Under the pieces are notes generated by a model that saw only the letters and a list, made by a program, of their open reading frames with translations, had not been told where the DNA came from and made no database searches. Below, piece after piece: positions 9,923 through 45,333 of a DNA stretch of 46,116 bases; positions within the stretch are counted from its first letter, which is position 1; every line of letters begins with the position of its first letter. Location: the NCBI GenBank assembly GCA_029982875.1, contig JARRCD010000002.1, positions 1-46,116 of the forward strand. The letters are read 5' to 3'. This DNA comes from Candidatus Cloacimonadota bacterium. GTDB lineage: Bacteria > Cloacimonadota > Cloacimonadia > Cloacimonadales > Cloacimonadaceae. The translations under genes and the position numbers were made by a program.

Positions 9923-10888
9923 TTAGCGGGGATCTATATCAGTGCTGAGATTGATGTGGAAGCTACTTTGCAGATGGAGAGTATCGTAACGCGATGGCAT
10001 AGCCGAAAAGTATTTACTGTAAATAATCTGGAGTGTGTATCTCTCATCCTCCAAAGGTGTATAATCCTGCATCTCAAAGAGCAGATCGATTTCTTCATTA
10101 GCCCCGATAGTGGCATATTTGTAATCTATGGTATACATCAGCTCTCCGGTGGAATCGAACAACCCCAGAATAAAGAATCCGGAGATATCTACATCGAGGA
10201 CATTTTGTAGGCTTACAAAGACATCTGCGGGTAGGGGCAGACCGTAAATATCATATAAAAAGGATTCATCTTCGGGGATGGGCACCACATTGATCTCGCT
10301 GCTCAGCTTAAAAGTCTGTTCATCCAGCCAAATTCCGCTGTAGCTTCTGGCCGAGCGAAACCCACCCCAATATGCCAAAGTGCGGGCTTCATAATCTGTC
10401 ATGCCAGGATCATTTACATAGTATGAAGAAGCTCGGTTTGCCGGGCCGTCGCGTTTTACCACCAAGACCCAGTGTGAACGGCGGCCGTTTACTTTGACGA
10501 TTACCTTGTGTCCCTTCTCCAATTCTGAGGCGAGAAAATGCCAGTCGTTATAACGAAAGCTCTGGGCTTCCAGCTCCAATCCCAGACCTTCGCCATCAAT
10601 CAATCCGGGGATTTGCCAGCGCAGGTCGTTGCCGTAATAGCCCCCGTTTTTTCGCAACCAGGAGTTCAGCTTATCCGGCGTCATATAGGGATTTGAGGCT
10701 TCTGCATTGAGCAGCATCGATAAACAGGATAATACACATCCACTGCGCCCAATGGATGTGCTCCGCCCCAGTCTGTCATATTGCCAACGCGAATCACTCT
10801 GGGAAAACCAATTAAATTCCGTTGCGAAGCACTGGACAACTAACAGCATAAAACAGAGACTAAAAAAGAATCTTTTGGTGTGTGACAT
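9923..10888 (-). CDS. Secreted C39-like (papain-fold) cysteine peptidase
   Basis: ATG at 10888 is chosen over the GTG at 10906 because it gives a clean signal peptide (MSHTKRFFFSLCFMLLVVQCFAT); neither has a clear ribosome site. The mature N-terminal half resembles the peptidase_C39_2 group: Cys51 in SIGRSGCVLSCLSMLL, His139 in GRRSHWVLVV, and Asn159/Asp160 in YYVNDPG, in the order expected for a Cys-His-Asn/Asp site. The last ~130 residues look like a beta-sandwich with no family I recognise (VFVSLQNVLDVDISGFFILG and later strands). Unlike bacteriocin-processing C39 domains it is not fused to an ABC transporter, so a periplasmic or surface peptidase or amidase role is inferred. It stands alone, divergent from the hydrogenase-maturation genes. 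Confidence 0.75.
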   Translation of the reverse strand: MSHTKRFFFSLCFMLLVVQCFATEFNWFSQSDSRWQYDRLGRSTSIGRSGCVLSCLSMLLNAEASNPYMTPDKLNSWLRKNGGYYGNDLRWQIPGLIDGEGLGLELEAQSFRYNDWHFLASELEKGHKVIVKVNGRRSHWVLVVKRDGPANRASSYYVNDPGMTDYEARTLAYWGGFRSARSYSGIWLDEQTFKLSSEINVVPIPEDESFLYDIYGLPLPADVFVSLQNVLDVDISGFFILGLFDSTGELMYTIDYKYATIGANEEIDLLFEMQDYTPLEDERYTLQIIYSKYFSAMPSRYDTLHLQSSFHINLSTDIDPR

Positions 10889-11110
10889 ATTTTCTAAGCT
10901 TAACACGATAAATTAGTTACGCATTTTTTGCTAAAATGAAGGGCAGAAACAATCTGTCAATAACAATTTTTCTCTTGCCAGAAATCTACTTGGTAAAAGA
11001 ATGGAAAAAATAACCTGCGATGAGAGATACGTTCTGGCATCAAGGGTGGAATAATCCTCCCCCTTATGCCTCCATTTTATCAATTTTCGCTTGTACGTCA
11101 GGAAGTATTT

Positions 11111-12897: not shown

Positions 12898-13230
12898 ATG
12901 CTTATCCAGATAACTGACCAAAACTTTCAGGAAGTTACTTCAAGTGGCTTGGTATTAATAGACTTTTGGGCACCTTGGTGCGGACCCTGTAAAATGATCA
13001 CTCCTACCATAGAAGAAATCAGTAAGGAAAATGAAAATATTAAAGTGGGCAAACTCAATGTGGACGACTATCCGGATCTTGCGGGGAAATATGGGGTTAT
13101 GAGCATCCCAACTTTGCTCTTTTTCAAAGATGGCGAGGTGCAGGATAGCTCTATTGGCGTAGTACCCAAAACCGTGATCCAAAATAAACTTGCTGCTCTG
13201 AATGATGGGGCAGGGAATCTTGCACCGTAA
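12898..13230 (+). CDS. trxA: Thioredoxin
   Basis: This is a small cytosolic disulfide reductant. ATG at 12898 is preferred over the track start (a TTG at 12844) because AAGGAG lies six bases upstream and the protein then begins MLIQITDQNFQEV, giving the typical 110 residues. The active site is FWAPWCGPCK, and the cis-proline loop is MSIPTLLFF. The C-terminus carries a short extra tail (DGAGNLAP) that overlaps the next gene by 29 bases. It may be read together with the acyltransferase downstream. There is no thioredoxin reductase nearby. Confidence 0.95.
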   Translation: MLIQITDQNFQEVTSSGLVLIDFWAPWCGPCKMITPTIEEISKENENIKVGKLNVDDYPDLAGKYGVMSIPTLLFFKDGEVQDSSIGVVPKTVIQNKLAALNDGAGNLAP

Positions 13231-14110
13231 AGATCTGATAAATATCCTTGAATATTATCCCTTCAGAGCTCTGATTGCACTGCTGAAACTGCTGCCATAT
13301 AGTTGTAGCAAAGCCTTGATATTGGCGTTATTCAGACTATTTGGTTATGGTATCGGAATTAGGCGCAATGTTGCTGCTGCACAGCTGAAAAAAGTCTATC
13401 CAAGGTGGGATGATGCGCACCTGCACAAAGTCTTAAAAGCTATCTACCGGCAGCTGGCTCTGAATATTGCCGAAGAATATTTGCTGGATGATGATAGGCT
13501 GAATAAGAATTCCACCGTTAAAGGGAAAGAACATATAGAAAAAGCACTGTCCCTGGGGAGGGGAGCCATCCTGGCTACGGCGCATTTTGGGAATTGGGAA
13601 GCAGCCCGCATCCTCCCCCTCAAAGGCATCCCCCTGGACGTTATCACCAAAAAACAGCGTAATACCCTCTTTGACAACTATACCAATGCCATCAGACAGC
13701 GCAGCGGTATGCATGTCATTGATATGAAGCGCGGATTGAGGGATGTCATTACCAATCTCAAAGAAAACCGCCTGGTAGCAATCCTGGCAGATCAGAATGC
13801 AGGATCACGGGGGATAGTATTGGATTTTCTGGGCTATCCGGCTTCACACTGGAAAGGAGTAGCCAAGCTTTCGCTAAGATATCATATCCCCATCGTGCCG
13901 AGCTTTGTGGTTCGTCAAAAAGATGATAGCCTTTGCTTTGAATTTTCTGAGATGATCTACTATCCGGATTTGGAGGATAAAGAAGAAAACTATCCCCAGC
14001 TGCTATCCCCAATCATCCGGATCACAGAGGATTATATCAACCGCTATCCAGAGCAATGGTTCTGGGTGCATAAGCGCTGGAAACACGCCTGCGATATGTT
14101 CCAAAGATAA
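13202..14110 (+). CDS. LpxL/HtrB-family acyltransferase (lipid A-type late acylation)
   Basis: The family transfers fatty acyl chains from acyl-ACP onto lipid A precursors at the inner membrane. The catalytic motif is His128-FGNW-Glu133 in ATAHFGNWEAA, matching HX4D/E. Later family features are ILADQNAGSRG, the FLGYPASHWKGVAKLS segment and the C-terminal PEQWFWVHKRWK. One hydrophobic N-terminal stretch (about residues 22-48) should anchor it. The start is uncertain. ATG 13202 has no clear ribosome site and overlaps the thioredoxin gene by 29 bases, while TTG 13220 follows GGGGCAGGG. If lipid A is absent in this lineage, another lipid acceptor is possible. The length (302) fits the family. Confidence 0.85.
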   Translation: MMGQGILHRKDLINILEYYPFRALIALLKLLPYSCSKALILALFRLFGYGIGIRRNVAAAQLKKVYPRWDDAHLHKVLKAIYRQLALNIAEEYLLDDDRLNKNSTVKGKEHIEKALSLGRGAILATAHFGNWEAARILPLKGIPLDVITKKQRNTLFDNYTNAIRQRSGMHVIDMKRGLRDVITNLKENRLVAILADQNAGSRGIVLDFLGYPASHWKGVAKLSLRYHIPIVPSFVVRQKDDSLCFEFSEMIYYPDLEDKEENYPQLLSPIIRITEDYINRYPEQWFWVHKRWKHACDMFQR

Positions 14111-14170
14111 AGATTGACAGCTATTCAATGCATACAAAGTTGGTAGTACTATAGTAGATTGGAGTAATCA

Positions 14171-17100
14171 ATGTATATAGATCATCGCTATGAAGTTTTG
14201 GAGAGCTTGGGCTCCGGAAGTTGGGCAAATGTATATAAAGTACGGGATCTTCGCTCAGACAAGATATATACTCTGAAACTCTTTCAATACCTTTCTTCAG
14301 AGGAGCTTTATCGCTATTTTAGCGCTGAAGATATGCATCATATTACCCAGATTGAGCATCCCAATCTCTCCCATGTGGTGGATTTCGGACATGTGGGTGA
14401 TCATATCTACTTTATCAGTGATTATTTTGAAGGCAAGACTCTGGCATACTTCCGTTTTTCACCCAACAGAATCCATCTTATCTATGATATTGTAGTACAA
14501 ATCTGCTATGCTCTCCATGCTTTGCATCGCCAGCAAATCCTCCATAAAGACCTCAAGCTCGAGAATGTCTTGTACAATCTGGAGAATGGACAAATCACCA
14601 TCAATTTAATCGACTATGGTTTTTCCAAGATCGATCCCAACACGGATAGCCAGCATGTATCAGGCTCCTTGCCCTATTTGGCTCCGGAATTGTATCTGGG
14701 GCACGCACCGACTGAAAGCAGCGATTTCTATGCTTTGGGAGTAATGCTCTACCGCCTGTGTACGGGCTCTTTCCCCTTCAGCATAGATCAGATCAATGCT
14801 CTTATTACCGGCGGTCACCAGTATTTTATACCGAATTTCCCCTCGGAACTAAACAAAAACATCCCTCCGGATCTGGAGAAATTTATCCTCAGGCTCTTGG
14901 AAAGGAATCCTCAAAACCGCTTCCAAAGCGCAGAAGAGATCATCGGCTATATCAATCGCATCTACCATAATGATTACCCCTTTTCAGCCTCCTGGTCCTT
15001 AGTAAATACCATGCGCTTCAATAGCTACCTCGTGCGGGAGAAATATGCACATCAGCTCCTGGATTTTGTGCCCGCCGTTACCAACGCAAATGGCAAGATA
15101 ATATCGGTCATCGGAGGTGACGGTTTAGGCAAAGATAGCATATTATCGCTATTCCGTTACCATCTTTTGGGGGGAGAATTTTACTTGTTTGATTACACTT
15201 GCACGCGTACCGAGCATGAAGCCTTTTTTGCGCTGATCAAGGAGTTTTTGCAATCCTTAAGTGCCGAGGAAATCAAGCAATACAAGTCCCTGTCCCAGAT
15301 ATCTCCGAAGTTTAAACGCTATCTCTTTTCCAGTGAACAGGAAGCCAAGTCTTTAAGTCAAACCGTAGACGACCTTAAGGGAGATTTTGAGAGTGTTAAG
15401 AATCTTTTGATCCAGCTTTCTCACAACAAGCCCATTATCTTTGTGATCAGGAATTTTCAGTATGTAAACCGGCACACGATCGATTTTATTAACTATATGT
15501 CTCCTTATATGGTGCAAAACCGTTTGATGGTAGTTCTCTCCTGCAATGACTTTAACAAGGTTAGCCAGATCGAGCATACCGTCTTAATCAACATCCCTTT
15601 CCTGGATAAAACAGAGAGCTACTCTTATATCAACAAGCTGCTTCCTGCCAAAGCCCCAAACCAATTTTGCGATGATCTCTACCAGCGTTCCAGCGGAAAT
15701 CCTCACTTTATCAAAGAAATACTCATAGACCTGGTGCAAAAGAAAAGCATCGTCCTGGAAGATGAGATCAAGTTCCCGGAGAATCTGGACGGATATCAGT
15801 TACCCTCCAGACTCCTGCACTCAATCTATTCACGGATGAGTCACCTTACTACTGGTAGTTATGCCGCCTTGCAGAAGCTTAGCATAGTTCAGACTCCTAT
15901 GAGCAGGGAATTGATTATCTACATCCTGAAACTCAAGGATATAGAGCTGTATAACCTGCTCAATGATGCTACCTACAACGAGATCATTAGTAAAAAGGGA
16001 AAGTATTATAGCTTTAGCTTTATCGAAGCAAAACAGAGGATGTATTCCGAATGCAACGAAAAGCTGCATGTTTTTGTATCTAAGAGACTACTGCAGTACT
16101 TTAAGCATAAGGAAATTACCGATAGGAAAACCTGCGAGGGGCTGATCTCAAATGCTTTCATAGCAAAAGACCTCCAGGCCGCCCGGTGTTATTATCTGAA
16201 ACTTTCGAGTTTACTGAGTGAGGATTATGAGCAAGCTGAGGCCTATGAGGCTATGCTGAGTGTATTGAAGCTGGATTTTGATCCTCAGACTAATGTGGGA
16301 GCTCGGGAAATAATCCAGGACCTCACTATCTTTCAGGAAAAGACAGAGTTTACCGGCTTTTATGAACGGGCGGGATTTATCCTGGACAATGCTGATCTGA
16401 TCCCGGAGATCTTTGAGAAGCATTACACAATGGGGACTATCCTCTACTTGCGGGAGGATCTGGACAATGCTCTGACGAGTTATCAAATGGCGGAAGAGCT
16501 GATCATGACAGGAAAGCAGCAGCTTCTGATCTGGTTGTCTTACATTCAGGTCTATCTTAGGACGGATTTGGTTCAAGCACGTTACTATCTGGATCTGGCT
16601 TTAGCGCAAGAGCTGCCGCTGGACCTGCATATCGCTTTTACTGACAGGCTGGCGGTTTATTATAATATCAGGAATGAACCTGATCGGGCCATCAAGTTGC
16701 TCGAGGACTTTTTGGAGGAGATTCCTCCAGAACACGATAGCAGGGTAATGACGAGGCTGGCGGCGATGCATAATGATCTGGGTGTCTTTTACAGTAATCA
16801 GAAGGTCATTGACGAAGCGGACGAGCATTTGAATCAGGCTTTGAGCATTGCCAAGCGCTTTAATCTGCGTCGCTATTGGGGTTTGATCTATAACAATCTC
16901 TCAGACTTGTATCTTAAGCAGGGCATCACTGTGGAATCCAGTCAGTATTCTGAATTGGCATACAAGTACTCCAGTGAGTTGAATCTGACATCTTTTAAGG
17001 CATTAGCTCTGCTCAATCAGGGCGAGGCCAAAATCAAGATGGGTGAGTTTCACGAAGCCGAGACTTTACTTTTATCCTGCAAAAAGATGATGCAATCCAT

Positions 17101-19621
17101 TAACAGGGATAGTTACACCGATGCAATAGCTCGTAATCTGGCTCTGGCCAAGAGCAAGATCAAGGGATTTGGATATTATTACGACTACATTATTCAGAAG
17201 GAGCCTGATCTTACCAAATCCAAGCTCAAGACTATCAATCCATTGGTCAAGACATACTTTTACTATTTGCATGAAATGAGAAGCCCGAAAAAGCTCCGGA
17301 AGCTTCTCAGCAGCAACGTTCAGATCAATTTCAAACACTTGCACGAAGAAGAGTTCCTGCACAACGTGCTCAGTCTCATTGCCATGGTGGAATTTGATTA
17401 TGATAAAGCGCTCAAAGAGCTCAAGCTGGCTCTCAAACATGCCGGTGAGATCAATAATAACTATGCAATTACAGTGTTTTACGTTCTGGAAGCGATGTGT
17501 CATTATGGCTTGGGAGAATATGTCCGGGCTCAGGAATTGATAGATAAGACCAGAGAAATCGCTCACCGGAATAAGTATCGCTATTGGTTGTGCAATCTGG
17601 ATATTATGCAGTTGAGGTTGGATCTATTAATCTCGGATATTCCGTTACGTAGCATATTACGCCGAGTAAATAAGTATCTTGCAGATTGGGAAGCCTATGA
17701 GTATTATCAACTCAATGTGGAATTGTATCAGATTCGTTTGCAGATCTTAGTCGAGATGAAGCAAGATGAACTGGCTCAAAGCGCATTTAATGAGTATCAG
17801 AACTATCTGGATGCCATTACCGAGGGTACCCCTGAGGAAGACAAGAAAAACTACCTGAATGTAAATAAGTATAACCTCAAACAAGTGAGAAACTTTGATC
17901 TGATCCCGATCAAATCCAGGGCTAAAAACCTCCGCCGAAAGTGGAACGATCTGCTCTTTAATATCGCAAATATTTATAATGTTAACCGGGTGAAGTTTTT
18001 GATCCAGAAAGGGATCAAGGAAGTGTTATCGCCTTGGAAATTCAGCCTGATGGAGTATTCTGACAGAACCAATAGTTTTATTAACTTCATAAGTTACAAT
18101 TGCGAGAGGGATGGCTTGATGGACTCCACTCTATGGCAAGAGATAGAGAGAGCTTTAAGCAATGATAGTATGCAACAGCTTGTTCATGAAGGGCATCATA
18201 TAGCAATTATCCCGTTTACTACCGGGTCAAAGCGTATCGGCTATCTCGTACTTTCCGATGCAGGTGAATTGCCTTATACAAAACAAGAAATCTCCATCAT
18301 GCGTAATATCAAGCAACATCTGGCAGCTTTGATCGTCCGCATCCAGGACTATTCGGAAATCACGATGCGCATTCAGAAGATGAACCAATTGATGCAGATA
18401 TCCCATGAATTGATGCGCATTGTAGATATTGATGATCTTGAGCATGAGATAGTTTCCAGGGCGATAGATTTCACCAATAGCAGCCGCGGTTTTCTGATCA
18501 AACGGGATGATGACGGCAACAATATCTATCGGGTGCAGATAAACAAAGAAAAGCAGATCTTAAGCAATGTGGCTGGGGTGAGTAAAACTGTGCTTTCTCG
18601 CTCGCAGACGGGGAGTGAGATGGTTAGCACCTTCAATGCTATGGAGGATAATCGCTTCAAAAGTGCCATCAGTGTGCAGGATTACCAATTGCACACCATC
18701 TTTTGTGCTCCGATTGTGGTGGATAGCGATATATTTGGTTTCTTATATTTGGACAATATGGACGAAAATAACCGGGCTATGTATTTGAAACCCGAGATTA
18801 TAGCCCTATTTATCGAGCAGATTGGTATTGCCATTAAAAACGCCATGCTCTACCAGAATCTGCTGCAAAAAAGCAATGAATTGAACGCATTTGAAGTGCT
18901 CAAAGATGAATTTATGGCCATCGTTTCGCATGAGTTCAATACTCCTCTTACTACTCTGCAAAGCTATGTATCGCGTTTGAAGCGTAAGCTTTATGCGGAT
19001 GAGGACGAGCGCAATGAAATTATATCCAAGATCGAAAACTCGGTCAAGAAATTGATCACAACCACCGGTGATATTACCACGATGAATACCTACAATTTGA
19101 TAAAGAGTCTGGATATGGCGCCATTGGATTTGAAAGAGATTTTGGAACTCGTGCAGCAGGAAGTGGATATTCTTTCGCGTAAACGCAAAATGTTCATCCG
19201 GATGGATATAGAAAATGATTTACCTGAGATCAAAGCCAATTGGGAGGCGTTGCATCTGATGATCTATAATCTGGTGCTCAATGCAATTCGCTTTACCAAT
19301 GATTTTGGCACGATCATCATCGGAGCGCGCAAAGCAGCTTTTCAGAAAGAGAAAGTCAAGGGTCAGGATAGCGTGGTGATCTATGTGCAAGACAATGGGA
19401 TCGGAATCCCGGAGTATCAGATCAAAAACGTCTTTCGCAAGTTCTATGAACTCAATGAAATCTATGCGCATAAATCTGGCACGATCGAATACCGTTCCAG
19501 CGGATTAGGTTTGGGATTGGCCACTTCCAAAAGGATAGCAGAATTGCACCACGGGAACATTTGGATCAAAAGCAAGGAAAACGAGGGAACCACCGTATTT
19601 GTCAGCTTGCCCATTAAATGA
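14171..19621 (+). CDS. Giant Ser/Thr kinase - NTPase-like - TPR - GAF - histidine kinase protein
   Basis: The domains run in this order over 1816 residues. Residues ~1-270 are a eukaryotic-type protein kinase with GSGSWANVYK, Lys36, His125-Lys-Asp127 (HRD), DYG near 150 and APELYLGH; all catalytic residues are present. Residues ~300-620 form an AAA/STAND-like module, but its Walker A is G315-x4-GKD and its Walker B site reads IFVIRNFQY, so ATP hydrolysis looks lost. Residues ~620-1230 are a long alpha-helical TPR-like region. Two GAF-like domains follow (~1260-1395, weak; ~1405-1565, clearer). The end is a histidine kinase with His1587 in SHEFNTPL, an N-box (NLVLNAIRF), DNGIGIP and GLGLGL. 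There is no transmembrane segment, so it is cytosolic. GGAG lies before the ATG; TTCAAT-17-TACTAT (14124-14152) is a weak promoter candidate. No response regulator is adjacent. The architecture recalls cyanobacterial HstK and PknK-like proteins. Confidence 0.9.
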   Translation: MYIDHRYEVLESLGSGSWANVYKVRDLRSDKIYTLKLFQYLSSEELYRYFSAEDMHHITQIEHPNLSHVVDFGHVGDHIYFISDYFEGKTLAYFRFSPNRIHLIYDIVVQICYALHALHRQQILHKDLKLENVLYNLENGQITINLIDYGFSKIDPNTDSQHVSGSLPYLAPELYLGHAPTESSDFYALGVMLYRLCTGSFPFSIDQINALITGGHQYFIPNFPSELNKNIPPDLEKFILRLLERNPQNRFQSAEEIIGYINRIYHNDYPFSASWSLVNTMRFNSYLVREKYAHQLLDFVPAVTNANGKIISVIGGDGLGKDSILSLFRYHLLGGEFYLFDYTCTRTEHEAFFALIKEFLQSLSAEEIKQYKSLSQISPKFKRYLFSSEQEAKSLSQTVDDLKGDFESVKNLLIQLSHNKPIIFVIRNFQYVNRHTIDFINYMSPYMVQNRLMVVLSCNDFNKVSQIEHTVLINIPFLDKTESYSYINKLLPAKAPNQFCDDLYQRSSGNPHFIKEILIDLVQKKSIVLEDEIKFPENLDGYQLPSRLLHSIYSRMSHLTTGSYAALQKLSIVQTPMSRELIIYILKLKDIELYNLLNDATYNEIISKKGKYYSFSFIEAKQRMYSECNEKLHVFVSKRLLQYFKHKEITDRKTCEGLISNAFIAKDLQAARCYYLKLSSLLSEDYEQAEAYEAMLSVLKLDFDPQTNVGAREIIQDLTIFQEKTEFTGFYERAGFILDNADLIPEIFEKHYTMGTILYLREDLDNALTSYQMAEELIMTGKQQLLIWLSYIQVYLRTDLVQARYYLDLALAQELPLDLHIAFTDRLAVYYNIRNEPDRAIKLLEDFLEEIPPEHDSRVMTRLAAMHNDLGVFYSNQKVIDEADEHLNQALSIAKRFNLRRYWGLIYNNLSDLYLKQGITVESSQYSELAYKYSSELNLTSFKALALLNQGEAKIKMGEFHEAETLLLSCKKMMQSINRDSYTDAIARNLALAKSKIKGFGYYYDYIIQKEPDLTKSKLKTINPLVKTYFYYLHEMRSPKKLRKLLSSNVQINFKHLHEEEFLHNVLSLIAMVEFDYDKALKELKLALKHAGEINNNYAITVFYVLEAMCHYGLGEYVRAQELIDKTREIAHRNKYRYWLCNLDIMQLRLDLLISDIPLRSILRRVNKYLADWEAYEYYQLNVELYQIRLQILVEMKQDELAQSAFNEYQNYLDAITEGTPEEDKKNYLNVNKYNLKQVRNFDLIPIKSRAKNLRRKWNDLLFNIANIYNVNRVKFLIQKGIKEVLSPWKFSLMEYSDRTNSFINFISYNCERDGLMDSTLWQEIERALSNDSMQQLVHEGHHIAIIPFTTGSKRIGYLVLSDAGELPYTKQEISIMRNIKQHLAALIVRIQDYSEITMRIQKMNQLMQISHELMRIVDIDDLEHEIVSRAIDFTNSSRGFLIKRDDDGNNIYRVQINKEKQILSNVAGVSKTVLSRSQTGSEMVSTFNAMEDNRFKSAISVQDYQLHTIFCAPIVVDSDIFGFLYLDNMDENNRAMYLKPEIIALFIEQIGIAIKNAMLYQNLLQKSNELNAFEVLKDEFMAIVSHEFNTPLTTLQSYVSRLKRKLYADEDERNEIISKIENSVKKLITTTGDITTMNTYNLIKSLDMAPLDLKEILELVQQEVDILSRKRKMFIRMDIENDLPEIKANWEALHLMIYNLVLNAIRFTNDFGTIIIGARKAAFQKEKVKGQDSVVIYVQDNGIGIPEYQIKNVFRKFYELNEIYAHKSGTIEYRSSGLGLGLATSKRIAELHHGNIWIKSKENEGTTVFVSLPIK

Positions 19622-32896: not shown

Positions 32897-32936
32897 ATTA
32901 TAGAAGATATCAAACCGAATATAAAGGATGTATGAG

Positions 32937-34832
32937 ATGAAGAAATTAAGCTTATTCCTAATGCTATTTTTAGCGATTACCATGGTGATGGCCGTGCCTC
33001 GTGATATGGTCGTCATCGAAGTAGGTACTGGTACTTGGTGTCCCTATTGCCCGGGCGCATCAATGGGTACCGACGATTTGCTGGAAAATGGCTACGCGGT
33101 GGCTGTGATTAAAAATCAAAACGGCGATGCCTATGCAAATGTTTATTCCAATGCACGCAACGCCTATTATGACATCACCAGCTTCCCAACTGCCATGTTT
33201 GACGGTGTGCTTGACTACCCCGGCGGGAGCAATACCCAATCACTTTATTCCGTCTATCAGCCTTTGGTTAATCAACGTCTGGCAATTCCCTCGGCATATA
33301 CAATCACTGCCGAAGGCGAATTGAATGGTCAAGTTTTTACGGTCGATGTCACTGTTACCAAAGTAGAAGATGATTTAAATACCAACGTTCTTTTGCATTC
33401 TTCGATCACAGAATCCAATATTCAACAGAATTGGCAAGGCCAGACTCATCTGAACCATGTAAATCGCCTGATGTCACCCAGCCAAAATGGGACTCCTATC
33501 GATCTGGATACGGGAGAATCCACTACGATAACTTTGACTTTTAACCTCAATCCCGCTTGGAGCCTGCCCAATCTGGAAATGGTGCTGTGGTTGCAAAACT
33601 ATACTTCCAAAGAGATTTTGCAAGGCAAGAAATATAGTGTTCCCGGAATAGCCGGAGCTTTTCCTGCTTCTGCTGAAACCATAAACTTCCGGGATACTTA
33701 TGTGGGCGGGTTTGATACCAAATCGATCTTGTTTTACAATTTTGGAGATGATCCGGTTACTGCCAATATATCCAGTGATAACTTTTCTTTCATACCCGAA
33801 ATAATGAATATCTCTATCCCCCCACGGCAAAGCGCTACACTCAATGTTCATTTTATTCCTTCCGCGGCTGGCAACTTTGAAGCTGATCTTACTGTGACGG
33901 GCAACTTCCTCAATCATCCTGAATTTACGGTCGCTATGTCTGGTTATGCTTTCATAAATACCCCTCCTGTGGCAGAAGGCGTTTTGCTCTATGGTCCACC
34001 GGTATATCGGCAGAGTTTGATTGGAACCTATAGCTTTAGCGATGAGGATGACGATGAAGAAGGATCGAGTATAATGCAGTGGTATAGAATTATCAATGAT
34101 ACTCCACAGGAAATCCCCGACGCAAATAGTATTAGCTATATCATCCAGGATGCTGATTTGGGCTTACAGATTGCCTTTGGGGTAACGCCGGTAGATGAAC
34201 ACGGGATGCCTGGAGAATTGGTAATGAGCGACCCTTCAGAAACCATTATTCCCTTACCAGCTCCGCAAAACTTTGCCGGAGTATATCTCCCTCCTGATAC
34301 TGTGCAGCTTACTTGGGACCGTCCTCTATATTTCGAAGGTCGTGGTTTTGTAGGCTACAGGCTGTTCCGGGATGGACTCCTGATATCTACAATCACCGCT
34401 CCGGATAACATGACCTTCACAGATACCTATGTGGCGGATGGAACTCATGAATATTGGATATGTAGCTTGTTTAACAATCCCATGATGCTCTCTGAACCCA
34501 GTCCTTCTGTCTTTATCACTGTAGATAGCACGGATAACGAGGATCTGGTAAGCGCTGCTGATTTTGGCCTTAAAGCTATACCCAATCCCTTCCAGACTAT
34601 GACTAATCTTGAGATCAAGTCTGAGCCCAATACGGCATTTACGGTTACGGTATACAATCTCAAGGGACAAGCCGTGAAAAAATGGGAAGCGGTTAGCAAC
34701 GCAGATGGTCAAAGCAATCTGACCTGGGTTGGCAAAGACCAGAGAGGGCAAAATACAGACAGCGGAATATATCTATATCGCATAGAAACTCCAAGCAAAT
34801 CCAGCTCAGGGAAACTTATCAAGCTTAAATAA
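32937..34832 (+). CDS. Secreted Omp28-like thioredoxin-fold protein with C-terminal T9SS-type sorting domain
   Basis: ATG at 32937 is preferred to 32928, because the latter overlaps the AAAGGA ribosome site. A signal peptide (MKKLSLFLMLFLAITMVMA) leads into an N-terminal Omp28/thioredoxin-like domain with the redox-looking CPYC in TGTWCPYCPGA and the NxxS...SFPTAMFDG pattern. Residues ~240-345 look like an HYDIN/DUF1573-type Ig fold (IPPRQSATLNVHFIPSAAG). Residues ~445-540 fit a fibronectin III module. The last ~85 residues (AIPNPF...GIYLYRIET...GKLIKL) are a type A sorting/FlgD-like domain that would direct export through a type IX pathway and surface attachment. Length 631. It has its own strong promoter and terminator. 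Substrate or partner unknown. Confidence 0.85.
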   Translation: MKKLSLFLMLFLAITMVMAVPRDMVVIEVGTGTWCPYCPGASMGTDDLLENGYAVAVIKNQNGDAYANVYSNARNAYYDITSFPTAMFDGVLDYPGGSNTQSLYSVYQPLVNQRLAIPSAYTITAEGELNGQVFTVDVTVTKVEDDLNTNVLLHSSITESNIQQNWQGQTHLNHVNRLMSPSQNGTPIDLDTGESTTITLTFNLNPAWSLPNLEMVLWLQNYTSKEILQGKKYSVPGIAGAFPASAETINFRDTYVGGFDTKSILFYNFGDDPVTANISSDNFSFIPEIMNISIPPRQSATLNVHFIPSAAGNFEADLTVTGNFLNHPEFTVAMSGYAFINTPPVAEGVLLYGPPVYRQSLIGTYSFSDEDDDEEGSSIMQWYRIINDTPQEIPDANSISYIIQDADLGLQIAFGVTPVDEHGMPGELVMSDPSETIIPLPAPQNFAGVYLPPDTVQLTWDRPLYFEGRGFVGYRLFRDGLLISTITAPDNMTFTDTYVADGTHEYWICSLFNNPMMLSEPSPSVFITVDSTDNEDLVSAADFGLKAIPNPFQTMTNLEIKSEPNTAFTVTVYNLKGQAVKKWEAVSNADGQSNLTWVGKDQRGQNTDSGIYLYRIETPSKSSSGKLIKLK

Positions 34833-35054: not shown

Positions 35055-37166
35055 ATGTTAAGCGATGCGGACAATCCGCTTTCAAAGATTAGAAACATCG
35101 GCATCATGGCTCATATCGATGCCGGGAAAACTACTACAACTGAGCGGATACTCTTTTACACGGGATTCTTACACAAAATGGGGGAAGTACACGATGGAAA
35201 TGCTTTCACAGATTGGATGGAGCAAGAGCGCGAACGGGGGATAACTATCACTTCCGCTACCGTAAACTGTCCCTGGAGAGATCACCAGATCAATATCATC
35301 GACACTCCCGGACATGTGGATTTTACCGCTGAAGTAGAGCGATCACTCCGGGTTTTAGACGGAGCAGTGGGTGTGTTTTGCGCAGTTGCGGGAGTGGAGC
35401 CACAATCCGAAACAGTATGGCATCAGGCCGATCATTACAAGGTTCCCCGCTTGGCATACGTGAATAAGATGGATCGCATTGGGGCGGATTATTATCATGC
35501 TATTCAGATGATCCATGAGCGCCTTACCAGCAACGCTTGTGCAATCAATATCCCGATCGGCAAGGAAGATTCCTTTGAAGGTGTGATTGATCTCATTACT
35601 ATGCAAGCCTGGTATTTTGATCCGCTTACACAGGGATCAGAGGTAAGGCACAGCGGCATCCCGGAGGAATTCTGGGCAGAAGCGCAGGAAGCAAGAGAAC
35701 ATCTCTTAGAAACCATCTCAGAGTATGATGATGAACTCATGATGCTATTTTTGGAGGGTGAGGAGATCCCCTTGCAATTGATCATTAAGACGATTCGGGA
35801 AGCGACCCTCAGACATGGATTCATTCCCGTTTTATGTGGCTCTTCATTAAAGAATAAGGGCTTGCAATTGCTTCTGGATGCGATCGTGGATTTCCTGCCT
35901 TCGCCTTTGGACGTGGGAGACACGCACGCTATTGATCCTGAGACCAATGAAGCTGTAAGCCTGGCCCCCGATCCTGATGCGCCATTGGTAGCTATGGCTT
36001 TCAAGGTGCAAATTGATAAGTATGTAGGTCGCCTTATCTATGTCCGGGTTTACTCCGGAACCCTCAAAAAGGGGAGCAGCTTTCTCAATATGAGTAATGG
36101 AAAACGGGAACGTGTGGCACGCATCTTACAGATGATGTCGAATCGGAAGAACGATAAAGACAAACTTCAGGCTGGGGATATAGGGGCTATCGTGGGTCCC
36201 AGGTATCTGGTTACCGGTGATACCATCACTGATGGCAACATCAATGTAGTGCTGAATAAGATGCACTTTCCCGATTCGGTGATTGCCATAGCAATTGAGC
36301 CCAAGACAAAGGCAGATCAGGATAATCTGAATAATGCGCTATCCCGGTTGGAGGAAGAAGATCCCACTTTTAAAGTCCATGTCGATAAAGATACAGGGCA
36401 GACCCTTATTTCCGGGATGGGTGAACTTCACCTGGATATTATCGTGGATCGGATAAAGCGGGAATTTGGCGTCCATGCCAACGTCGGCAATCCCCAGGTT
36501 TCCTACAAAGAGAGCATCACCCAAAGCGTTGTAGTATCTGAAACCTTTCAACGTGAGATGAATGGGAAGGGGAATTATGCTGCCGTCAGCTTCCGCTTGA
36601 GTCCCATTCCGCTTAAGTCTCTTCCTGAGGATGCAAAGAATACTTTCCAATGCTCGGTAAGTTCCGAAAAGATCCCAACCGAATACTGGAAAGCGATAGA
36701 AGAAGCAGCATTGGGTGCCTTGGCGGATGGTCCTTTGATTAGCGCAAATGTAGAACGAGTGGCCATTGAGCTCATAGACGGGGATTACAACCCGGTAGAT
36801 TCAAATGAATTAGCCTTTAGAATAGTTACATCGATGGCAATCGGGAAGGGACTGCGTGAGGCTAAACCTGTGATTATGGAGCCGATCATGTTACTAACCG
36901 TTCTTGCTCCAGATGACTTTGTGGGAGATATCATCTCGGATATCAACGCCAAGCGGGGCAAGATAGAAGTAATGCGCAGGCACAACGATTATCTTCAGGA
37001 AGTGGTGGCAGATGTTCCTCTTTCCGAGTTATTTGGCTATTCCACCCGGATCCGGTCTCTCTCTCAAGGTCGAGCTATCTACACGCTGGAATTCAAGAAA
37101 TTTGAGATCGCCCCAGTACAAGTTCAGAATGAAGTACTCAGAAGGATACGTGGTTTTGCAGAATAA
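35055..37166 (+). CDS. fusA: Translation elongation factor G
   Basis: EF-G is the GTPase that moves tRNAs and mRNA through the ribosome. GTP-binding motifs are AHIDAGKT at residues 19-26, DTPGHVDF and NKMD. The switch I segment [12 protein letters not shown] is intact. Domain IV and V ([28 protein letters not shown]) are complete, and the length of 703 residues is normal. It lies outside the usual rpsL-rpsG-fusA-tuf operon, so it could be a relocated main copy or a second EF-G; only the rest of the genome can tell. It has its own probable promoter and an AAGGAC before the ATG. The STAS gene follows 64 bases later. Confidence 0.93.
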
Positions 37167-37230
37167 ACTTGACAAAGACGATGTAAAAACTAATAATGGA
37201 ACTAAAGAAAGAATAGAGGGAGATAGCGTT

Positions 37231-37539
37231 ATGAATATCGATCTTACTTTTAGCGGCAACATTGCTTCCATGAAGATTGATGGCATACTCAATAGTGAGA
37301 ATGCCCACATCTTGCAGGAGAAACTTAATGAAGTGATGAAGAGTGAAGCCACACTCTTGGAACTTGATCTATTTGATTGCAGAAACATCTCATCTACCGG
37401 AATCGGTAAAATCCTCTTATTTTACAAAGACTTCATCTCAAAAGGTGGTGATATCGAAGTTGTACGCAGCTCAAACAGTGTCTACGAACTCTTTTCTATG
37501 CTAAAGCTGAACCAACTTTTTACCGTCAATTTGGGATAA
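37231..37539 (+). CDS. STAS-domain protein, probable anti-sigma factor antagonist
   Basis: The track frame begins inside EF-G, but ATG 37231 follows GAGGGAG and gives a single-domain 102-residue STAS protein (MNIDLTFSGNIASMKID). SpoIIAA/RsbV relatives are phosphorylated on a Ser or Thr in DSSG; the matching site here is Ser54-Ser55-Thr56 in CRNISSTGIG, so it could be switched by phosphorylation. Its stop lies one base before the REC-HATPase gene, whose C-terminal domain is the expected kinase partner. I infer a partner-switching pair. No sigma factor or PP2C phosphatase gene is in the window. A cytosolic protein. Confidence 0.88.
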   Translation: MNIDLTFSGNIASMKIDGILNSENAHILQEKLNEVMKSEATLLELDLFDCRNISSTGIGKILLFYKDFISKGGDIEVVRSSNSVYELFSMLKLNQLFTVNLG

Positions 37540-37540
37540 G

Positions 37541-38470
37541 ATGCCAGACCCTCACAAAATCCTGGTGGTGGATGATAGCATTGCAATCGTCAATTCGCTG
37601 CAAGCCATCTTGGGTGTCAGCGGTTACAAGGTGGATACCGCCTACAACGGCAGTGATGCGCTAAGGAAGCTTCATCAGCAGCATTATGACTTGGTAGTCT
37701 GTGATATCGAGATGCCGGGGATCTCTGGCTTTGAATTCTTGAGCAGAGTACGTGAGGATTTTGAGCGCGATCTTGATGTGATTTTGATGACTGGATATTT
37801 GGAGCATGATTATTTTATCGAAGCAATCAGACTCGGGGCCAGCGATTTTATCCGCAAACCAATCGACAACAAGCAATTAATCAATTCCATCCGGGAATTA
37901 ATATTCCGCAAACAGAGTCGTGATGATCTCTCCGAGTTTTACTGCCATCTGGAGAAAGCCAAGTTTAGCTTTGACATGTCCGCAAAAAACTTTTCCAAGT
38001 TTGCTATCTCCAAGATCTTCAGTTCCTACCTCAGGCAATATTTCAGAGTGGATCCCAAAGTCTTGAATGAGCTTTTAGTCTGTGTGGATGAGATGGTGTA
38101 TAATGCTTATATTCATGGCATTTTGCAATTGACCATAGAGCAAAGAGCATTAGCTCAGGAGCAATTGCAGGAAGTTATAAATAGCAAACTTCAGGATCCA
38201 GCTTTTGCGGACAAAAGAATGCATCTGGCCTTTGAAGTGGATAATGCGACTCAGATGATAGAGATTTGGGTTTCCGATGATGGAGAAGGCTTTGATTATG
38301 TGCATTGGCTTGAAACTGTAAAAACAAAGCAGTTGTTTGATATCAAAGAATATGGACGCGGAATAGCCATGCTTTATCACCTCAGCAATGAATTGAGTTT
38401 TGCAGATCAAGGCAGAACTGTGAAAATCCGTAAAAGCTTGGTCAATCCGGAAATAGATGAAAATCCATGA
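37541..38470 (+). CDS. Response regulator fused to an RsbW-like serine kinase/anti-sigma ATPase domain
   Basis: The 309-residue cytosolic protein has an N-terminal receiver domain (residues 1-~120) with Asp11-Asp12, phospho-acceptor Asp55, Thr84 and Lys106, all intact. After a linker comes a GHKL ATPase domain of the RsbW/SpoIIAB type: CVDEMVYNAYIHG (N-box), VSDDGEGFD (G1) and YGRGIAML (G2). It lacks a histidine-kinase dimerisation box, so it is more likely a Ser kinase or sigma/anti-anti-sigma binder than a histidine kinase. The paired STAS gene one base upstream is its probable substrate. Phosphorylation of Asp55 by an unknown histidine kinase would gate the switch. It overlaps prmC by 14 bases. 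Confidence 0.88.
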   Translation: MPDPHKILVVDDSIAIVNSLQAILGVSGYKVDTAYNGSDALRKLHQQHYDLVVCDIEMPGISGFEFLSRVREDFERDLDVILMTGYLEHDYFIEAIRLGASDFIRKPIDNKQLINSIRELIFRKQSRDDLSEFYCHLEKAKFSFDMSAKNFSKFAISKIFSSYLRQYFRVDPKVLNELLVCVDEMVYNAYIHGILQLTIEQRALAQEQLQEVINSKLQDPAFADKRMHLAFEVDNATQMIEIWVSDDGEGFDYVHWLETVKTKQLFDIKEYGRGIAMLYHLSNELSFADQGRTVKIRKSLVNPEIDENP

Positions 38471-43599: not shown

Positions 43600-45333
43600 A
43601 TGAAACAAGTACTTATTACCTTGATGATGCTTGCGGCTTTGACTATGGCCTTTGCCCAGGCAAACACCCTCTTCTTCAGCGAATACATTGAAGGTTCTTC
43701 AAATAATAAAGCTATTGAGATCTTCAATGGTACAGGTAATGCAGTAGACCTATCTGAATACAGTGTGCGTCTTGGCTCCAATGGCAATTCCTGGGGCAAT
43801 ACACTGAATATGGAAGGTACTCTGGCAAACAACAATGTATATGTAATCGCTAATTCCGGTGCAGATCCTGCCATTCTCAACGTTGCAGATATTACTCATA
43901 CCGTGACCTACTTCAATGGTAACGACGCTCTGGGTCTCTTCCACGGAGACACAATGATTGATGCTATCGGTGTTTATCAGGAAGATCCAGGCAGCACCTG
44001 GTCAGTAGCTGGTGTGGATGGTGCCACTGCTGAACATACCTTGATCCGCAAACCTAATGTCGTACAGGGAAACCCCAACTGGGCGGCTGCGGCTGGGACC
44101 AATATTGACGATTCTGAATGGCTGGTGCATCCGCAAAATTACTTTGATAATATCGGCATGCACGAATTCTCTCCCGGCGGGGGAGATATTACCGCTTCTC
44201 CTACCTTTGATCCTCCGGCTGGAGTTTATACTCAAGCGATAAACGTTACCATGGCTTCAGAAACCCCGGATGCCATTATCCGTTATACCCTGAACGGGAA
44301 CGAGCCTACCGAGAGTTCTACCGAGTATACTGCTCCGATTGCAATCAACTCCACTACTACCATCAAAGCTAAAGCTTGGGCTGTTGGCTTGGACCCTTCC
44401 TATACCGCAACTGCCGTCTATACCTTCCCCGCGGTTGTACAAAACCTGGCAGAACTCAGACAGCAAAATGCCGATAACTCTACCGTATATATTGTGGTAA
44501 ATCCTGTTATCCTGACCTTCAAGCAGAACATGCGCAATCAGAAATTCTTCCAGGATGGCAGTGCCGCTATCCTGATCGATGACAATTCTGGTGTGATTTC
44601 TTCGAATTATGAGATTGGCGATGCCGTTGAGAATCTTACTGGCAGACTCAATTTGTACTACGAAACCCTACAGTTTGTACCTACCGAAGATCCAGGCGCT
44701 CCAGTCTCAAGTGGCAACCATATCCAAGTGCCTATTGTAACCATCTCCGAACTCAACGGTGATGTTGGCGTGGGCGAATATCAAAGCCGCTTAGTCTTTA
44801 TTGAAGATGTCGGCTTTGATAACCCCAGTGGCAACTACGCCACCAATCCTGCTCAGAACTATACCATTTCTGATGCTACCGGAGCAATGACTTTCCGTAC
44901 TTCCTTCTATGATGTGGATTATATCGATACTCCCATGCATACTGGAGTATTTAGCTTGATGGGGATCATTGCCCACTTCCAGGAAACTGCTCAAATCACT
45001 CCCAGAATGCTGTCAGACTTCAATCCCGTAGCTAATGATGATCCTACTTTAGCGCCTGCTCAGGCAAAGCTCATCGGCAACTATCCTAATCCCTTCAATC
45101 CGGATACTACTATCCAGTTTGAAATGGACAAAGCCGCAGCAGCCCAGATTGAAATCTATAACCAAAGAGGTCAGAGGGTAAAGAGCTTTACTGTCGATGC
45201 TACACAGGGAATCAACAACTTGCATTGGAATGGGATAGATGACAGCGGTAAAGCTGTGCCCAGTGGAGTATATTTCTTCCGCCTTAAATCCGGAAGTTAC
45301 AGCTCTACCAAAAAAATGATCTTGATGAAGTAG
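43600..45333 (+). CDS. Surface protein: lamin-tail, chitobiase-type and OB-like domains with T9SS-type sorting domain
   Basis: GGAGGA precedes the ATG, and a signal peptide (MKQVLITLMMLAALTMAFA) follows. Residues ~22-195 are a lamin-tail-like domain (LFFSEYIEGSSNNKAIEIFN; VDLSEYSVRLGSNG). Residues ~200-270 fit a chitobiase C-terminal-like module (ASPTFDPPAGVY...IRYTLNGNEPT). Residues ~280-480 resemble an OB-like/DUF5689 region (QNLAELRQQNADNSTVYIV...). The C-terminus has NYPNPFNPDTTI...GVYFFRLKSG...KKMILMK, a clear type A sorting/FlgD-like tail. Length 577. Lamin-tail domains in bacteria often accompany secreted nucleases, but no nuclease motif is seen. Function: an outer-surface binding or scaffold protein is inferred. 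No clear promoter was found. Confidence 0.85.
   Translation: MKQVLITLMMLAALTMAFAQANTLFFSEYIEGSSNNKAIEIFNGTGNAVDLSEYSVRLGSNGNSWGNTLNMEGTLANNNVYVIANSGADPAILNVADITHTVTYFNGNDALGLFHGDTMIDAIGVYQEDPGSTWSVAGVDGATAEHTLIRKPNVVQGNPNWAAAAGTNIDDSEWLVHPQNYFDNIGMHEFSPGGGDITASPTFDPPAGVYTQAINVTMASETPDAIIRYTLNGNEPTESSTEYTAPIAINSTTTIKAKAWAVGLDPSYTATAVYTFPAVVQNLAELRQQNADNSTVYIVVNPVILTFKQNMRNQKFFQDGSAAILIDDNSGVISSNYEIGDAVENLTGRLNLYYETLQFVPTEDPGAPVSSGNHIQVPIVTISELNGDVGVGEYQSRLVFIEDVGFDNPSGNYATNPAQNYTISDATGAMTFRTSFYDVDYIDTPMHTGVFSLMGIIAHFQETAQITPRMLSDFNPVANDDPTLAPAQAKLIGNYPNPFNPDTTIQFEMDKAAAAQIEIYNQRGQRVKSFTVDATQGINNLHWNGIDDSGKAVPSGVYFFRLKSGSYSSTKKMILMK

Follow-up and report, generated by a model that had tools for sequence, protein, structure and literature searches.

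A single-copy dual Ser/Thr-histidine kinase of Cloacimonadota combines a strictly conserved histidine kinase end with a degenerate NTPase-like module

What use is made of a soluble protein carrying a Ser/Thr kinase at one end and a histidine kinase at the other, and are both ends employed as enzymes? The question is raised by one gene in a stretch of 46,116 nucleotides (hereafter, the window) belonging to a Cloacimonadota MAG that is 92% complete. Proteins of this dual type have been known since 2001. The gene (14171-19621, + strand) is intact, with an uninterrupted open reading frame of 1816 codons. A ribosome-binding site, GGAG, lies 6 nt 5' of the ATG (14161-14164, + strand), and the start methionine is common to the orthologs, which begin with MYIDHRYEV, MFIDHRYEV or MIIDSRYEV. 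A scan for promoters and terminators returned matches at about the level expected by chance.

Domain searches recovered, within the 1816 residues, the order that a preliminary description of the locus had proposed, namely a Ser/Thr kinase, a P-loop module, TPRs, two GAF domains and a histidine kinase. The Ser/Thr protein kinase domain (aa 7-256; 14189-14938, this and all following features of the gene being on the + strand) matches Pfam PF00069 with an E value of 6e-41, as well as PDB chains of PknB/StkP type down to 8e-33. At the other end, the HisKA dimerisation/phosphoacceptor domain (aa 1578-1635; 18902-19075; 3e-10) carries His1587 (18929-18931) and is followed by the HATPase_c catalytic domain with its N, G1, F and G2 boxes (aa 1692-1815; 19244-19615; 3e-22). 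Kinase folds are thus found at both ends, as proposed. Between them, a TPR/MalT-like repeat region (about aa 641-1230; 16091-17860) matches Pfam TPR_12 and TPR_MalT at residues 863-928 and 1076-1196, and GAF2 (aa 1419-1554; 18425-18832) matches GAF_2 at residues 1419-1533 (1e-7) and GAF (2.6e-5). Pkinase and TPR_12 were each detected by Pfam in 26 of 26 orthologs, GAF_2 in 20 and AAA_16, at E≤0.001, in 8.

Two assignments need more than Pfam. GAF1 (about aa 1252-1370; 17924-18280) gives a weak GAF_3 match (residues 1282-1385; 0.011), but the call is supported by an AF2 model of the C-terminal part (mean pLDDT 61; about 60-85 in the GAF1 region), whose best Foldseek matches include GAF-containing phytochrome-type kinases. 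Similarly, the STAND/AAA_16-like P-loop module (about aa 285-640; 15023-16090) scores weakly against AAA_16 (residues 289-442; 0.027); it is supported by a colinear alignment with canonical AAA_16 relatives, 13 external proteins, that extends to a downstream GNP motif. The AF2 model of residues 1-660 is poor (mean pLDDT 46.7), and the Lys36-αC contact and similar geometry were not judged from it.

As stated in the preliminary description, the protein has no membrane segment, hydropathy being at most 1.6 over every stretch of 19 residues. In this respect it differs from PorY, the T9SS sensor kinase, which is a membrane-bound histidine kinase. A search with Pfam found no Response_reg match at the C-terminus, the HATPase domain being the end of the protein.

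The same domain order recurs phylum-wide among related genomes, where it had been suggested to look: matches were found in 111 of 125 Cloacimonadota genomes and in 69 of the 71 good ones. Orthologs are mostly full length, essentially one per genome, and roughly 25-79% identical; some genomes have only a fragment, at contig edges. A scan of the GTDB contig collection, which reaches close relatives only, returned five relatives, all Cloacimonadota. In 77 orthologs, the pairwise distances of five domain blocks correlate at 0.85-0.96 (shared ancestry uncorrected), and therefore the parts appear to have travelled together. By these sequence comparisons, the dual kinase is a single-copy core gene of Cloacimonadota, all of whose predicted domains were inherited together.

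A few genomes contain a second, shorter Ser/Thr kinase-NTPase paralog of 1122-1158 aa (G098:C198:55771-57675, G069:C307, G074:C231), in which the match stops before the GAF/histidine kinase region. At one locus (L093, G070:C73:18045-23479), the dual kinase is represented by two adjoining ORFs of 806 and 1003 aa and part of the TPR region is absent, reflecting either a real fission or an assembly error.

The two kinase ends have not been conserved alike. In all 77 orthologs, His1587, Glu1588, Pro1592, Asn1704 and Asp1741 are invariant, as are the G1 and G2 glycines G1743, G1745, G1778, G1780 and G1782. The histidine kinase end is therefore strictly conserved, and its predicted catalytic residues were never lost. 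The Ser/Thr kinase end of the window protein displays K36, H125-K-D127, N132 and D148-Y-G150, its DFG motif being DYG. The preliminary description had held that every catalytic residue is kept at both ends. This is correct for the window copy, where Lys36, Asp127, Asp148, His1587 and the N-, G1- and G2-boxes are present; across the family, it does not extend to the HRD Asp nor to the NTPase motifs. Indeed, Lys36 (75/77), His125 (77/77), Asn132 (76/77) and the DFG Asp148 (76/77) are nearly constant, whereas Asp127 (codon 14549-14551) is kept in 64 of the 77 orthologs. Its replacement in the other 13 requires at least 10 independent changes on the tree, and the same result is obtained when the tree is made without the kinase domain. 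The position of the αC-Glu (aa 54) is occupied by Asp54 in the window protein and by D, N, E, V and others in orthologs.

Loss of the HRD Asp did not entail decay of the remaining domain. Lys36 and the DFG Asp148 are both kept in 12 of the 13 orthologs concerned, and in four comparisons between a loser and its sister (L054, L057, L060 and L072) conservation of the rest of the kinase domain is about equal, which argues that the kinase fold is maintained without the catalytic base. By sequence, the Ser/Thr kinase end thus retains its ATP-binding residues, and the catalytic Asp is dispensable in several lineages. We infer that the fold and ATP binding are selected for and that phosphotransfer is dispensable, at least in the lineages that lost the HRD Asp. 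Some kinases without this residue keep low activity. The protein of the window's species has Asp127, and its Ser/Thr kinase may therefore still have catalytic activity. The orthologs that lost it offer a natural experiment on the role of the Ser/Thr half, in which active-kinase and pseudokinase versions of one protein can be compared directly.

A more advanced decay is seen in the orthologs of G020 and G021 (L050, L048), where HRD is replaced by HGA, the Walker-A Lys by Ala, and the kinase domain shows about 36% identity, with an intact histidine kinase. Judged by its motifs, this version is a far-decayed natural pseudokinase.

These data bear on the two-currency hub usually assumed for HstK, in which both kinases would be active in series, the Ser/Thr kinase acting on the protein itself or on other proteins and the histidine kinase on a response regulator. 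The window copy and 64 of the 77 orthologs keep K36, HKD127, N132 and DYG, and the kinase domain is second in conservation, behind the HATPase. Nevertheless, we consider it unlikely that both ends work in this way, given that the catalytic Asp disappeared independently at least 10 times while the domain persisted, that the αC-Glu is not conserved, and that the histidine kinase residues were never lost.

The NTPase-like module has lost more. In the window protein, the Walker A motif reads GGDGLGKDS (15113-15139), GK-D replacing GK-S/T, and the strand at the Walker B position, IIFVIR (15434-15451), has Arg427 where relatives carry Asp, giving VIRNFQ. For comparison we used 13 dual-kinase-type proteins from outside the phylum, a small sample that is plasmid-borne throughout and whose Gloeothece and Legionella members have another C-terminus in place of the histidine kinase. 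All 13 have a P-loop ending in GK-S/T and a Walker-B strand of the form hhhDD. The first Walker-B Asp, an assignment based on the alignment, occurs in none of the 77 Cloacimonadota orthologs (Arg in 63) and in all 13 external proteins (Fisher p 6e-16, a value that overstates independence, the 77 orthologs being related). The Walker-A Ser/Thr is kept in 17 of 77 and in 13 of 13, respectively. Conversely, the kinase Lys is missing in 5 and the DFG Asp in 6 of the 13 external proteins. As read from these alignments, the STAND-like NTPase of Cloacimonadota dual kinases has lost its hydrolysis motifs, and decay has struck opposite modules in the two groups, the NTPase here and the Ser/Thr kinase in the external lineages.

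The reading that we favour, to which we give a slightly better than even chance, is that of a cytosolic histidine kinase with orphan targets whose N-terminal half is mainly an ATP-loaded regulatory input gating the kinase, with a role in the envelope or outer membrane. Gating is suggested by the contrast between histidine kinase residues that are invariant in 77 orthologs and an HRD Asp that was lost at least 10 times with retention of the ATP-binding residues, and by the hydrolysis motifs missing from the NTPase module in comparison with the external proteins. A nucleotide-bound kinase-fold switch, an NTPase-fold scaffold and the TPR superhelix would pick up a cytosolic signal and pass it to the HisKA dimer by way of the GAF pair and a helical linker. 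The N-terminal half would thus gate the histidine kinase by its conformation, rather than being chiefly a second phosphotransfer enzyme. As output, His1587 would pass its phosphoryl group, by His-Asp phosphotransfer, to an orphan response regulator encoded by a separate gene, and the system would serve envelope or outer-membrane homeostasis. On the other hand, catalysis may matter in most lineages, since 64 of the 77 orthologs, including that of the window, keep the full HRD/DFG set; this counts against gating as the main function. We also consider, as a rather doubtful extension, that both the Ser/Thr kinase fold and the STAND NTPase fold have become non-hydrolysing nucleotide-binding switches gating one active histidine kinase that controls an outer-membrane operon. 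If true, the protein would be a natural mirror image of known dual kinases, in which the NTPase is intact and the kinase domain is decaying.

The envelope part of the favoured reading comes from gene order. The upstream genes of the window were correctly named in the preliminary description as hydG, trxA and an acyltransferase gene, the latter being of the lipid A type: it encodes a lipid A biosynthesis acyltransferase (HtrB/LpxL type; 13202-14110, + strand; Pfam PF03279, 2e-49) and lies directly upstream of the dual kinase gene, which begins 60 nt further. In 16 loci of the window's taxonomic family, the neighbour upstream on the same strand is this acyltransferase gene. Downstream in the window stands an opposing gene. 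A hydrogenase link through hydG was considered and rejected, as hydG lies upstream in the window's genus only (the window, L113 and L011) and is not conserved. On the strand opposite the hydrogenase-maturation genes, the window also encodes a 327-aa, possibly exported protein (9923-10906) that has no Pfam match.

The neighbours had been described as silent on the role of the protein. This holds in the window's genus, but the gene order of related genera gives a lead. A same-strand gene follows within 30 nt 3' of the dual kinase in 53 of 71 loci; it encodes an exported TPR protein of about 970 aa in 25 of these 53, a protein of family c4 in 17 and one of family c25 in 7. The exported TPR protein has a signal-like N-terminus in 48 of 50 cases and is normally followed by an exported protein of about 490 aa (c2/c9; c2 and c9 are homologous at 5e-29), whose C-terminus is TonB-receptor-like and weakly resembles a TonB-dependent receptor barrel (E 0.0017). 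In several genera, genes for an unnamed protein, a divergent polysaccharide deacetylase, UppP and HolA come next. In most genera other than the window's, the dual kinase gene therefore heads a tight operon, in which it most often leads to the genes for the exported TPR protein and a predicted outer-membrane barrel. Within the window's genus, this envelope operon and the dual kinase gene are not linked; the window's genome has the block at G000:C95:11604-19972 (L124). Taken together, the linkage to the exported TPR protein and predicted barrel and the lipid A acyltransferase upstream in 16 loci point to the envelope; this is guilt by association, and operon linkage is no proof of function.

Block L124 itself encodes the exported TPR protein, the OM-barrel-like protein, an unnamed 284-aa protein, the divergent polysaccharide deacetylase, UppP and HolA; in other genera, the block stands immediately 3' of the dual kinase gene. 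Families c4 and c25 (L053:9425-10321; L085:12460-13503) are mutually homologous (hhalign E 1e-9) and form a cytosolic family of about 300 aa, encoded directly 3' of the dual kinase in families f10 and f13. Searches of Pfam and NCBIfam gave no match for c4/c25, c2/c9 or the 284-aa family.

Which response regulator would receive the phosphoryl group? No response regulator gene adjoins the dual kinase in the window or at the other loci examined, in agreement with the orphan output initially proposed. The nearest in the window (37541-38470, + strand) encodes a receiver joined to HATPase_c_2, next to a STAS gene; it is found in only 54 of 125 genomes and was therefore rejected as a universal partner. 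The STAS and receiver-HATPase_c_2 genes (37012-38470) lie between fusA and prmC/murA, in the same order in G001, and encode a putative partner-switching pair under response-regulator control.

Orphan response regulators co-occurring with the kinase, which had been suggested as a place to search, do exist phylum-wide. PorX (NF052313, 697 bits) is a single-copy receiver protein present in 106 of 125 genomes, and a CheY-like single-domain regulator (G001:872257-872634) occurs in 111 of 125 genomes and 69 of the 71 good ones. Elimination, however, assigns neither. In G001, a complete genome of 2.25 Mb, three histidine kinases and six response regulators are encoded, and no regulator gene adjoins that of a kinase. 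In the minimal 1.4 Mb genome G117, which has two histidine kinases and whose response regulators are CheY-like, PorX and an RR-PAS-GGDEF protein, pairing by elimination fails: the membrane histidine kinase (mazG-HK-nnrD synteny) is near porX in one family and near the CheY-like regulator in two others. Because the dual kinase is one of three histidine kinases in G001 and one of two in G117, it is probably a main regulator in this poorly known, uncultured phylum.

One possibility is that the dual kinase is mainly an input to PorX and thus controls the T9SS in Cloacimonadota, which would be compatible with the gating reading. PorX is a phylum-wide, single-copy receiver protein, the SprA translocon was found in 5 of 5 genomes tested, and the exported TPR protein linked to the dual kinase bears a weak resemblance to PorW/SprE (53 bits, for a cut-off of 250). 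However, this resemblance is that of a generic TPR, and the membrane histidine kinase, which in four genomes of a single genus lies 4-7 kb away from porX, is a more natural equivalent of PorY, making a PorX-directed role distinctly improbable. Although the T9SS is often called Bacteroidetes-specific, SprA and PorX are present in Cloacimonadota, and T9SS type A sorting domains occur in two secreted proteins of the window (32928-34832 and 43600-45333).

Alternatively, and equally compatible with gating, the dual kinase could phosphorylate the CheY-like regulator, and the latter would then influence the synthesis of envelope or lipid A through protein contact. The regulator matches the kinase in universality, and in family f1 its gene is coupled to lpxK. 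Furthermore, single-domain response regulator genes lie beside the dual kinases of Cronobacter, Pantoea and Nostoc MS1, which therefore provide a precedent. Yet the window's own MAG, 92% complete, gave no match to this regulator, and in the families of G056 and G092 its gene is close to that of the membrane histidine kinase, which suggests that the two pair there. Rate covariation does not single it out either: with PorX as baseline, the dual kinase and the CheY-like regulator gave a rho of 0.29 (0.43 on the shared set), and a control response regulator gave 0.65, so that this measure is uninformative. We therefore hold the CheY-like partner as tentative and somewhat doubtful. The gene orders concerned are purC, CheY-like regulator, x, mazG and membrane histidine kinase at L188 (G056), and CheY-like regulator, x, mazG, membrane histidine kinase and nnrD at L175 (G092).

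Comparison with known systems shows where the novelty lies. The preliminary description had called the domain order rare, which proved mistaken: the architecture is already known (PMC1262709, PMC2176072, PMC9069115) and what is new is its setting, as a single-copy core gene of an uncultured phylum. The same order occurs in 38 cyanobacterial cbSTKIII proteins (PMC2176072) and in Candida CHK1 and fission yeast (S. pombe) Mak2 and Mak3 (PMC9069115, PMC5383687); it also appears in the annotation of plasmids from Bacillus, Nostoc, Calothrix, Bradyrhizobium, Microvirga and Cronobacter. The suggested resemblance to HstK is supported. The window protein has the features that define dual protein kinases (PMC2176072), an N-terminal Ser/Thr kinase, a C-terminal histidine kinase and at least one GAF domain between them, and by these features is a dual protein kinase of HstK/cbSTKIII type. 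Like Alr2258, Pkn40 and Pkn41, it unites a Ser/Thr kinase, GAF and HisKA/HATPase in one soluble protein (PMC1262709, PMC2176072; L140, L141). In contrast, cyanobacterial dual kinases are multi-paralogous with shuffled domains (PMC2176072), whereas Cloacimonadota have one vertically inherited copy per genome; and the plasmid-borne cyanobacterial examples compared have a canonical AAA_16 NTPase, which is degenerate here.

The proteins annotated by NCBI as 'trifunctional serine/threonine-protein kinase/ATP-binding protein/sensor histidine kinase' (L142 from Bradyrhizobium, L192 from Microvirga), to which those of Bacillus badius (L139) and Cronobacter (L144) are similar, share the order and length, about 20-23% identity with the window protein and the GNP motif after the NTPase. 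Their degeneracy is inverse: with the other external proteins, they keep the NTPase intact and have lost the kinase Lys in 5 and the DFG Asp in 6 of 13, while in Cloacimonadota the NTPase is broken and K36 (75/77) and D148 (76/77) are kept. The window protein has an AAA_16-homologous P-loop, and neither an intact Walker A Ser/Thr nor a Walker B Asp; to judge from its sequence, it does not belong with the 'trifunctional' proteins whose ATPase works. Finally, fungal CHK1, Mak2 and Mak3 share the S_TKc, AAA_16, GAF and histidine kinase order, and their N-terminal domains are required for function (PMC9069115, PMC5383687), the input signal of CHK1 being called unclear (PMC9069115). They are, however, hybrid kinases with a C-terminal receiver, and the window protein, whose sequence ends with the HATPase domain, is not a hybrid of CHK1 type.
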